Assembly (NCBI GenBank): GCA_027943245.1
Contig: JANDJZ010000097.1
Location: 1-64,000, forward strand
DNA length: 64,000 nt
Reading direction: 5' to 3'
Source: Acanthamoeba sp. SK_2022b
Taxonomy: Eukaryota; Discosea; Longamoebia; Acanthamoebidae
Positions 12,423-16,589 of the stretch are shown here, one piece after another. The notes below the pieces were generated by a model. It was not told the origin of the DNA and did not search any database. It was given only the letters and a program-made list of their open reading frames with translations. Both the position numbers and the translations under genes were made by a program. The first letter of the stretch is position 1; each line of letters opens with the position of its first letter.

Positions 12423-13293
12423 CCTTACTGCTTTGCAAAGTTCTTCTTCTTTCAATGCTTTTCTTTTTCTTTTCTATTTCGTCAGGAAGGTCGGTGAACA
12501 AGATGGCCATGAACGGTCGAATGGGTTCGGTACTGTTTGGTCCTCTAAAGGTATTGAGATTGTCGATCAATAGCAAGTGGTAGTTCTCACTCAAAGTCCA
12601 TCTTTAGAATTGGAAATCTCATTTGGGGACTTACAGTAACTGTGATCTCTAATTCTAGGGCTTACAACTTCCCGTCCACATTTTGGTTATGTACTCTCCC
12701 ACAAAACGTCCTCAAACGCAGGGATTAGTTTCGTCGTCCAGGTCAATCGTTTGGCCATGGCACGGCAAGCCGACACGCTTGATCGGCAGCCACGCAGATA
12801 CAACAGGCAAACTATTTTCATCATCATTTTCCAATTATCTTTCCCTTTATTTTCTTTTCATCTTTTTCCACTTGCTTACAGCTGTACGATCAGTCCCCCC
12901 TACGCCCAACACCACAACGTTTCGTACCGGTTGTCACTCTCCTTCTTTTTAGAGGATCAAGAGCAAGTGACCGATACCTTAGATCCCATCTCCGGTCATC
13001 CGTAGCGGACCTAGCAGGCCCGTTTGCAAAATGCTCGCACGCCATTTTTACGCAACAGTGAGACTCGAACACACGCACCACAAAAACACAAAAGCACAAT
13101 CCATTCCAATAAGGTTTTGAGTTTAGTAATTTGGCTTCTTCGAAGCGTTTGCGTGCAGCGATTGGGGCGTGGGTGGACTGCGTAACGGATAAATTGTCCC
13201 TTCCTCCTTCACCGTTTATTCTCTCCAACAACCTACACTAGAACCTAGAATCACCTTCTTCTCTCACACCACCACCACCACCACCACCACACC
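12423..13293. other. Long AT-richer region between divergent PRCC and H15-WWE genes
   Basis: Base composition is visibly lower in GC than in the genes on both sides. I see no exon chain I can defend. Short frames such as the one starting ATGGCCATGAACGG (about 12508) do not resemble known domains. The right end holds a (CAC)n run at about 13268-13292 immediately before the H15-WWE start codon, as its 5' UTR. The region probably contains the divergent promoters of both genes. Confidence 0.45.
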
Positions 13294-14378
13294 ATGCCGA
13301 GAGAGCCCCACCCGCGTCGCGCCAAGGAGGTGAAGAAGGAGCCCACCGACTACGTGGCCCTCATTCAGCCGGCGTTCCAGCCGTCGCAGGTTGTCGGTCA
13401 CCGCAAGAAGGCCGAGGAAGAGGCCAAAGCCGAGGAGGCCAAGGCCAAGGCGGCCGCTACGCCCAAGAAGCTCACTGCCAAGCAGCGCAACGGCAAGCCC
13501 ACCTATGCGAGGATGATCGCGCGCGCCCTCATCGACCTCCAGGAGCGCTCGGGCTCGAGCGGTCCCGCCATCGCCAAGCACATCGAGGCCCACTTTGGCA
13601 AGTACCTTCCCGATAATTTCAAGATCTTCCTTCGCCGCGCCTTGAAGAAGGCCGTCGATGAGGAAATTCTCAGGCATGAGGGAGCCCGCTATCGTCTCTC
13701 CTCCTCGGCCAAGTCCAAGCTCGGCCTGAAGAAGCGTTCTCCCAGGAAGGAGACGACGAAGAAATCCTCTTCCTCTTCCTCCTCATCTTCCAAGAAGCGA
13801 AAGTCTTCCTCCTCGTCGTCACGTTCTAAATCGCCTAAGCGATCGTCCAAGAAGGACAAGAAGTCGGACAAGAAGAAGAAGAAGAGCAAGTCGAGCGACA
13901 AGAAGGAGAAGAGAAGCAGCTCGTCGTCCAAGGCCAAGGAAGCCAAGAGCGACTCGTCTTCTTCCTCTCGTTCCACTCGGTCAAGCTCGTCGTCCTCGTC
14001 TTCTTCTTCGGCTCCCAAGACAACGCCCGCTGGCTATGATCACTTCTGGCAGTTTCAGGAAGGCAGCCGGTGGCTCCCGTATGACTCGGCAGCTTCTGAT
14101 GTCGTCGAGAAGGCTTACCTCGACTACAAGAAGAACCCCGGCATGTGCGACGTTCGTGCTGTCAAGAGCGGCCAGTGGCAATACCAGGTCGATTTCCTCA
14201 ACAACAAGCAGACCGTACGTTCTCGCTCTCTCCTCTCATTCTGTTTTCGCTTCAGTCTCGTCGATTGCGTTTAACTAATTTTTCTCGTCGCTGTTCTCTT
14301 CTCCAACAGAACATTCAGCATGAGAACCACACTGTTAGGTCTATCCGTCGTGTAGCTGTCGGCAAGGAGTCACCCTAA
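13294..14378 (+). CDS. Linker-histone (H15) domain fused to a WWE domain
   Basis: Two exons (13294-14214 and 14310-14378; donor GTACGT, acceptor AACAG) encode 329 residues. After a Lys/Glu-rich N-terminus, residues about 67-143 are a linker-histone globular domain: PTYARMIARALIDLQERSGS, then IAKHIEAHFGKYLPDNFKIF and VDEEILRHEGARYRLS. A Ser/Lys-rich tail follows (about 144-240). Residues about 250-325 form a WWE domain: HFWQFQEGSRWLPYDSAAS, then YLDYKK, then WQYQVDFLNNKQTNIQHE and VRSIRRV, with the W, W and Q positions of the family. WWE domains bind iso-ADP-ribose in poly-ADP-ribose or serve in ubiquitin ligases. The simplest role is a chromatin-binding protein that reads PARylation; this is inference. 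Confidence 0.88.
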
Positions 14379-14559: not shown

Positions 14560-15590
14560 TTATTGCTTTTTGTCAAGCGGAGCAAACGTGATGGCGTCGC
14601 CCTCCATACCATCAATAACAGCCAACGAAACGATAGGCACCTCGGTAAGCTTGGATAGCAGTTCGCGACCGCCCTGCACGGTCACACGACCATGGCTGTC
14701 AGCGAACCGGCAAACACAAGCACAACCAGCAACAGCACGCGCGCACCTCAAAACTCTTCTCCACGAGGGCGCCGATGCCGACAAGCTTGGCGCCAGCTTG
14801 ATCGATCAGGTTCATAAGAGCTCGAATGGTGGTGCCGGAGGCTGCGCACAACAGCAATGAGCGCTCAACCAAGAAACAGTTGTGTGTGCAACTGAGAGCG
14901 CTCAAGTGTGGCAGCCCTACCCAAGAAGTCGTCAATGATGAGGACCTTGTCGTCGGCCTTCAGGTACTCCTGCGAAACGAAGAGCGAAACCGATCCTCCT
15001 TTCTGCACGGTTTTGGACGGAGGGGGAACGTTGGCACCACCCCGAGAGCCGCCAACATACTCCAGAGAACGAAGAGCGTACCGTGTGCGACACAGACTCT
15101 GTTGTGAGGAAGTGATCCATGGTGATGGGGCGCTTGCCAGAGCGACAGTATATAACCGGGCAACCTAGCTCGAGGCCTGTGCGAAACGATAGTGTGAGCT
15201 TGGCAGAGCTCGGACAAAGCACAACCGCTACAGCAAGAAGGGCGTGCACCAGTCATGAGAGAAGGAGCCACGCCCGAGGTCTCCACAGTGAGAATCTTGG
15301 TCACGCCCATGGCCTGCCAAGCAGGAGTCAGCAACGGTTTACATAAAGATTTACCACAACATTTTGTGCACCTTGAATCGTTCCGCGAGCTCTCCGGCGC
15401 ACGAGCGCATGAGCACGGGATCTATCATGTGGTTGATGAATCCCTGAAAAGAGCCACAACAACGGAGATGAGCAATCTCTGCATAGAAATTGCGAATTTG
15501 AAACGATGGGGGCCTTACATCGACTTTCAATATGCCACGCCCCAAGTTGCGGCCATCCTTGGCGATGCGTTCGCGGAGCAGCAGTGCCAT
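14560..15590 (-). CDS. Xanthine phosphoribosyltransferase (bacterial Xpt type)
   Basis: Minus-strand exons encode, in order, MALLLRERIAKDG, GRGILKVDV, GFINHMIDPVLM, MGVTKILTVETSGVAPS, GLELGCPVIYCRSGKRP, then an IDDFLG PRPP-binding loop, TTIRALMNLIDQAGAKLVGI and GALVEKSFE. The chain ends GDAITFAPLDKKQ. Each segment lines up with Bacillus subtilis Xpt (ILKVDSFLNHQIDP, TIESSGIAP, LIIDDFLANG, VIEKSF). The enzyme makes XMP from xanthine and PRPP in purine salvage. The start at 15590 fits the bacterial N-terminus, and an in-frame stop lies 15 codons upstream. About seven exons. The close match to the bacterial form suggests old lateral transfer, with introns gained since. Confidence 0.85.
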
Positions 15591-16589
15591 TTCTTCAAGT
15601 CGCCGGCGATTGTACCAATGTTGTGGGTGCTGCTGTCATTGCAGCAAACGAGCTCGCCCGTAGCTGCAACAAACGAGCACAAAAGTGTTAGGCCAACAGA
15701 AAGCTCGGGAGCTCGGAGAGAAAGGGAGCAATCTGCCGAGTCGGCAGTTTGACTTTAACAATGCGCGGGTAAGACCACAGTAAGCGCACCAACCGGGTGC
15801 AGCTGACCGACGGCAATGCACGATTCGCTGCTGGGGTTCGACTTCTTTCTGTGGGCGCTGGACAGCGGGTTGCGGGCCTTGGCACAGGAAGAAGGAGGAG
15901 TGGATTTGTGTAAGACGAAACACGCGCTTGGTCGCTGCAGCCCGAGGTCAACGGTGCCCTTTTGCCTTGTTGTAGACGTGGCCCAGAAATCACCAAGATC
16001 ATCTGCGTTGTTGGGTGCCGGCGTGCTTCCCAACCTCCGCTGCGTGACAAATCCAGAGACGTGCTTGACAAGGGGCCCTTTCGCGCAACATTTCCATGGA
16101 AATAGCAATGGCGGTGCCTCCGGCCACCACCCAATCGCCCGAGCAACGGGCTTACTTTACCTTGGAGAAAGCTGCCGAAAAGCCGCGTGCCGCCCCTGTC
16201 TCCCGCCAACGGCGTGTCCGGAAGCACGCTGTGCGAGAGCTGCAGGGAAACAGGATGGAATTTCATCCGATACCATCCGGTTCTTAGAAACGGCGGTAAA
16301 ATTGGGTAGCCATAAAAGCGGGACCGCCACATCACGCCACAATTCAAACTTTTTTCCACGCCCGACGACGTGACGCGTACACACAAGCGCGTCGTGCCAC
16401 CTTTGGTCTCTGTGTAGTTCGGAGGAACAAGCTTGCACCCCGCACACGTAGACAGACAGACAGACGCCACATTAAAACAACCAGCTCTCTTTCTTTCTCC
16501 TACATCGCTCCTGCAGCCAGCAACAACAGCAGCCGACGACGCAACTTCACAATCTTCACACACACAATTTCAAAGTCAATCTGGAGAAG
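15591..16589. other. Intergenic between divergent XPRT and kinase genes
   Basis: About 1 kb without a recognisable gene. Open frames on both strands exist but have no domain and poor codon bias. A CATAAAAG element at about 16312 on the plus strand could serve the kinase gene. A (GACA)n run lies at about 16449-16464. Confidence 0.45.

Follow-up and report, generated by a model that had tools for sequence, protein, structure and literature searches.

We analysed the first 64,000 nucleotides of contig JANDJZ010000097.1 from Acanthamoeba sp. SK_2022b (assembly GCA_027943245.1), hereafter the window, and describe a gene at positions 13,294 to 14,378 whose predicted product joins a linker-histone domain (H15) to a C-terminal WWE domain (Table 1). 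As predicted from the genomic sequence, the gene consists of two exons separated by a GT-AG intron and encodes a protein of 329 amino acids (aa). A preliminary description, made from the sequence alone, had proposed a single 95-base intron, and this is retained in the present model.

Table 1. Features of the H1-WWE gene in the window
Feature	Position	Strand	Remarks
Exon 1	13294..14214	+	ATG at 13294; 307 codons, covering the N-terminal tail, the H15 domain, the basic tail and the larger part of WWE
GT-AG intron, 95 bases	14215..14309	+	GTACGT...CAACAG; inside WWE domain, codons KQT / NIQ
Exon 2	14310..14378	+	22 codons and TAA (ends 14378); rest of WWE domain
Linker-histone winged helix (H15, PF00538)	13495..13677	+	aa 68-128
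Basic Ser/Lys-rich linker	13714..14034	+	aa 141-247; isoelectric point 11.3; predicted disordered
WWE (PF02825), exon 1 part	14044..14214	+	aa 251-307; F254, Y297, Q306
WWE (PF02825), exon 2 part	14310..14351	+	aa 308-321; R317 codon at 14337-14339

Gene model and domain structure

In the alignment, the motif KQTNIQHE spans the intron site of the window gene without interruption in relatives such as P0001 and P0004. Another relative, P0003, departs from the alignment precisely at the intron position, which looks like genomic sequence that was read through into the intron. Just 5' of the ATG, at 13267-13290, lie eight His codons in frame with no intervening stop; as the frame is open from 13249, an earlier non-ATG start would add this poly-His stretch to the protein.

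The two domains do not overlap, and both exceed their Pfam cut-offs: PF00538 reaches 51.2 bits (cut-off 22.4, E = 1.5e-13) and PF02825 49.3 bits (cut-off 21.1, E = 6.7e-13), which bears out the early impression of two domains in one short reading frame. Pfam found no RING, HECT, Deltex or PARP domain in the protein, nor an H2A histone fold or a macro domain. In a six-frame scan of the 45-Mb genome, the H15 and WWE models each located the gene independently. A profilin encoded in this genome is identical to profilin IA of Acanthamoeba (PDB 1prq) at 120 of 125 residues, in keeping with an Acanthamoeba or a near relative as host. At E values up to 0.001 WWE matches eight places in the genome and the linker histone two, and the window gene is the only place with both. 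The second linker-histone frame (contig C198) has a Lys/Ser/Pro-rich tail, with no WWE domain in the frame seen. Another of the WWE genes (L002, C1049:14022-14249; 183 aa from the first ATG) has its WWE domain near the C-terminus and is without a histone part in the frame shown.

The linker between the domains contains 36 Lys or Arg, 7 Asp or Glu and 47 Ser residues, and this composition, together with its isoelectric point, upholds the suggestion that the Ser/Lys-rich middle is an H1-type tail. For P0001, the closest relative, the predicted structure contains both folds, an H1/H5-type winged helix and the WWE half beta-barrel with one helix; the region equivalent to the linker has low values in the predicted local distance difference test (pLDDT).

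A cellular family of H1-WWE proteins

P0001 is 57% identical to the window protein over 98% of the query and holds both domains in one intronless frame of 322 aa. The first protein search, with precomputed Pfam assignments and scoring limited to the 7986 candidates with the most shared words, returned 68 homologues. The architecture of the window protein recurs in 50 of these, Amoebozoa among them; the remainder comprise 11 proteins with WWE alone, five with H2A and WWE, one with BRCT and WWE and one with a linker histone alone. Searching with the WWE part as query gave 58 proteins out of 62 candidates, nine of them with H2A parts and one with a bactofilin-like part. All WWE-bearing matches with a named organism belong to Amoebozoa (Stereomyxa, Filamoeba nolandi, taxid 136452, and Planoprotostelium fungivorum), and the only other named match, from Parascaris, has the linker-histone domain only. 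When the rows of the family alignment (A1) were scanned singly, WWE matched in all 67 and the linker histone in 64. Transcriptome-derived relatives, including those of Stereomyxa and Filamoeba, also carry both domains in one protein. Since relatives are intronless and some come from transcriptomes, the two domains belong to one protein. H1-WWE proteins, as defined by these homologies, are thus a widespread and conserved cellular family, which we did not find described in the open-licence literature.

No A. castellanii protein was named among the matches of the first two protein searches; in that species the gene may be absent, unannotated or missed. Two scans of IMG/VR (51 and 19 pattern matches) confirmed no relatives there. 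Two homologues place the same WWE type behind other domains, namely P0066 (228 aa), which begins with a single BRCT domain, and P0083 (314 aa), which begins with a bactofilin-like domain.

The pairing itself has a precedent. The preliminary description knew of no protein joining H15 and WWE; this is incorrect, as Talbert et al. 2022 (PMC9145170) report H1-WWE proteins from both clandestinovirus and LCPAC304. In the open-licence literature, no other paper was found to use the term H1-WWE; a linker histone H1/H5 is listed in the paper that first described clandestinovirus (PMC8383183), whose main text nowhere uses the word WWE. With the P0001 model as query, the clandestinovirus protein A0A8F8PQR7 ranked first in BFVD (E = 2.1e-15, 275 columns, 28% identity), followed by a match at E = 6.5e-5. 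The root-mean-square deviation (rmsd) of the first alignment was 32, as expected for two tethered domains. The LCPAC304 protein was not among the 50 BFVD matches listed.

Residues of the linker-histone domain and the WWE pocket

The nucleosome contacts of H5 comprise K40, R42, K52, K69, R73, K85 and R94. Four of these positions are named in PMC11500106. When aligned with H5, the window protein is basic at five of the seven, with R42, K52 and R94 identical and basic residues at the K69 and R73 positions. Helix 3 is shifted in the HMMER alignment, but there too the K69 and R73 positions are basic and K85 is not. Over the 67 family rows, basic residues occupy the R42 position in 37, K52 in 49, K69 in 60, R73 in 44, K85 in 47 and R94 in 57. 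The basic tether and these contact residues would fit a nucleosome-bound H1.

In RNF146, the substitutions Y107A, Y144A and R163A eliminate binding of poly(ADP-ribose) (PAR), as reported in PMC9367489, and the conserved WWE glutamine is described as making a double hydrogen bond to adenine (PMC11269756). Aligned with the RNF146 chain, the window protein has identical residues at the positions of Tyr144, Gln153 and Arg163 (Y297, Q306 and R317) and a conservative exchange, F254, at that of Tyr107. Across 95 WWE rows (94 homologues and the window protein), the 144 position is Tyr and the 153 position Gln in every row, the 163 position is Arg in 93 with a gap in the other two, and the 107 position is Tyr in 79 and Phe in 16. 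With such a pocket, the WWE domain of the window protein likely binds ADP-ribose or PAR. The residues that give RNF146 its preference for iso-ADP-ribose are not conserved, and it is therefore unsure whether PAR would be favoured over ADP-ribose, ADP or ATP. The genome contains PARP and PARG matches, and Amoebozoa including A. castellanii are reported to have PARPs (PMC4245714).

H2A-WWE relatives and neighbouring features

Thirteen homologues outside the window (P0047, P0051, P0060-P0062, P0071-P0073, P0076, P0082, P0086, P0088 and P0094) combine the same WWE subfamily with H2A. Their acidic-patch residues are invariant, and no description of H2A-WWE fusions was found in the open-licence literature. 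In the model of one member, P0072, the histone part is poor (pLDDT blocks 42-61); Foldseek ranked nucleosomal H2A chains first for it, with rmsd values of 7.5-20 among the matches listed. Because of this poor model, the H2A identity of P0072 rests on Pfam and the alignment. When a divergent H2A-WWE served as query in a third protein search, the result was five proteins from 10 candidates, all already found. No H2A-WWE gene was found in the present genome, in which an intron-split copy could escape the search; matches to the H2A-WWE query fell in H2A frames on C370, C954, C985 and C165, as well as in shorter pieces on C299 and C429, and the eight WWE places lie on other contigs.

The WWE tree was built from 71 columns and 78 of the 95 domains, leaving out 2 short rows and 15 near-copies. 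It contains five label changes for H2A, of which the starred branches force only one; the label H1orNone denotes the lack of an H2A, BRCT or bactofilin signature and includes proteins in which no H15 was seen. Of its 75 branches 47 are open and 5 starred, and the number of fusion events is beyond the resolution of the tree.

The next gene in the window lies on the minus strand at 14865-15635, apparently has several exons and resembles a xanthine phosphoribosyltransferase. Two of its fragments match TIGR01744 (E = 6.8e-7 and 4.9e-6), below the full-protein cut-off, and Pfam gave no match.

Discussion

We favour the reading, to which we assign a probability of roughly 55%, that the window gene encodes a chromatin-anchored variant linker histone that reads ADP-ribose or PAR. 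The winged helix and basic tail would keep the protein on nucleosomes and linker DNA, and the C-terminal WWE domain, on its flexible tether of about 107 residues, would bind the adenosine-phosphate part of ADP-ribose or PAR put on chromatin by PARPs, for example at DNA breaks. The outcome could be an H1 variant enriched or retained on ADP-ribosylated chromatin, or nucleosomes cross-bridged through PAR. Simultaneous anchoring on linker DNA and ADP-ribosylated sites had already been suggested in the preliminary description; the kept pocket residues, the five basic H5 contact positions and the PARP and PARG matches make the idea plausible, and nucleosome binding, PAR binding and a role at breaks are inferred. 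The mechanism is thus reasonable and now better founded, in an architecture that is not unheard of.

Several observations weigh against this reading. At the linker-histone end, the K40 and K85 positions of H5 are Gln and Gly in the window protein, and the former is basic in just 4 of 67 family rows. A. castellanii has three putative H1 genes, of which H1.1, described as acidic, is reported not to bind DNA in vitro (Toner et al., PMC11500106), and Talbert et al. doubt that the viral H1-WWE proteins condense chromatin (PMC9145170). At the WWE end, the Tyr107 hydroxyl is absent, the Arg110 position of RNF146 is a gap, and Trp114 is replaced by Leu261, a position that holds Lys in 49 of the 95 rows. 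In P0083, moreover, the partner of the WWE domain is not a chromatin module. HPF1 gave no match in the genome, a result from which nothing follows, as the search controls were equally silent.

The weaknesses at the linker-histone end would suit a winged helix that is a divergent DNA or protein binder, in which case the protein would be no H1 variant but a factor for transcription or repair that depends on PAR. The loss of K40 and K85, the doubted packaging role of the viral protein and the failure of A. castellanii H1.1 to bind DNA point this way, as do a weak Forkhead match in five of the 67 family rows and the three rows without a linker-histone match. We regard this reading, which is compatible with PAR binding, as somewhat unlikely. 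At the other end of the protein, the WWE domain might serve as a protein-protein adaptor, the role first suggested for WWE in ubiquitin and ADP-ribosylation enzymes, and might recruit a ubiquitin ligase or some other partner to chromatin bound by H1 while reading no ADP-ribose: E3 ligases are known to contain WWE domains, certain WWE domains of animals are reported not to bind iso-ADP-ribose (PMC10115779), and the distal iso-ADP-ribose contacts are unkept here. An adaptor surface, however, would not need a pocket Tyr, Gln and Arg held almost without exception across H1, H2A and BRCT partners, and we judge this role unlikely.

The same missing contacts could indicate that the pocket binds ATP or ADP and that the protein senses nucleotides instead of reading a chromatin mark. 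Crystal structures of the TRIP12, HUWE1 and DTX1 WWE domains contain ATP, an ATP analogue or ADP (PMC11269756), and the WWE parts of both predicted models (P0001 and P0072) match the TRIP12-ATP/ADP structures best. Yet HUWE1 is described as accepting ADP-ribose, and RNF146 iso-ADP-ribose, in the same pocket (PMC11269756), and the genome has matches to both PARP and PARG, so that a nucleotide sensor appears distinctly improbable. The chance that the gene model wrongly fuses two neighbouring genes is negligible: the intron does sit within the WWE domain, but the H15 domain shares one open frame of 341 aa with positions 2-57 of the 67 in the WWE profile, and intronless relatives, including the Stereomyxa and Filamoeba transcriptome proteins, have both domains. 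Separate genes or a chance frame are ruled out because of the E values and the conservation of both domains in relatives.

An ADP-ribose-reading linker histone, as we favour, would resemble several known systems in part. The clandestinovirus and LCPAC304 proteins share the linker-histone domain and WWE in a single protein, but the clandestinovirus protein is viral and has 226 residues, whereas the window protein is the 329-residue product of a spliced amoeba gene with a wide cellular family. H1 and H5 share the winged-helix globular domain and the basic disordered tail, although ordinary H1 tails have no folded domain at the end. The WWE domains of RNF146, HUWE1, TRIP12, DTX1 and PARPs have the same fold and adenine-phosphate pocket, in proteins whose RING, HECT, Deltex or PARP domains have no counterpart here. 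The macro domain of macroH2A binds ADP-ribose. The likeness is one of principle only, namely an ADP-ribose-binding fold tethered by a linker to the C-terminal end of a histone, since WWE is an unrelated fold and the window protein is built on H1 and not, like macroH2A (PMC9145170), on H2A. The H2A-WWE relatives are nearer to macroH2A in layout.

More tentatively, and with the odds against it, amoebozoan chromatin may have a built-in ADP-ribose-reading layer, in which one WWE subfamily, placed on both the linker histone and H2A, reads PAR. H2A-WWE would then be convergent with the macroH2A of animals, and H1-WWE might have been taken up by giant viruses of amoebae to interfere with or exploit this layer.

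The H1-WWE pairing having already been reported in giant viruses, what is new is the conserved cellular H1-WWE family, together with the H2A-WWE relatives, and the viral proteins, whose role has been called doubtful, gain a cellular family for comparison. In the animal ADP-ribosylation response, H1 is displaced and modified. If our favoured reading is true, a linker histone carrying its own ADP-ribose reader would tie damage signalling to packaging within a single molecule and, together with H2A-WWE, would mean that eukaryotes joined ADP-ribose readers to histones more than once.
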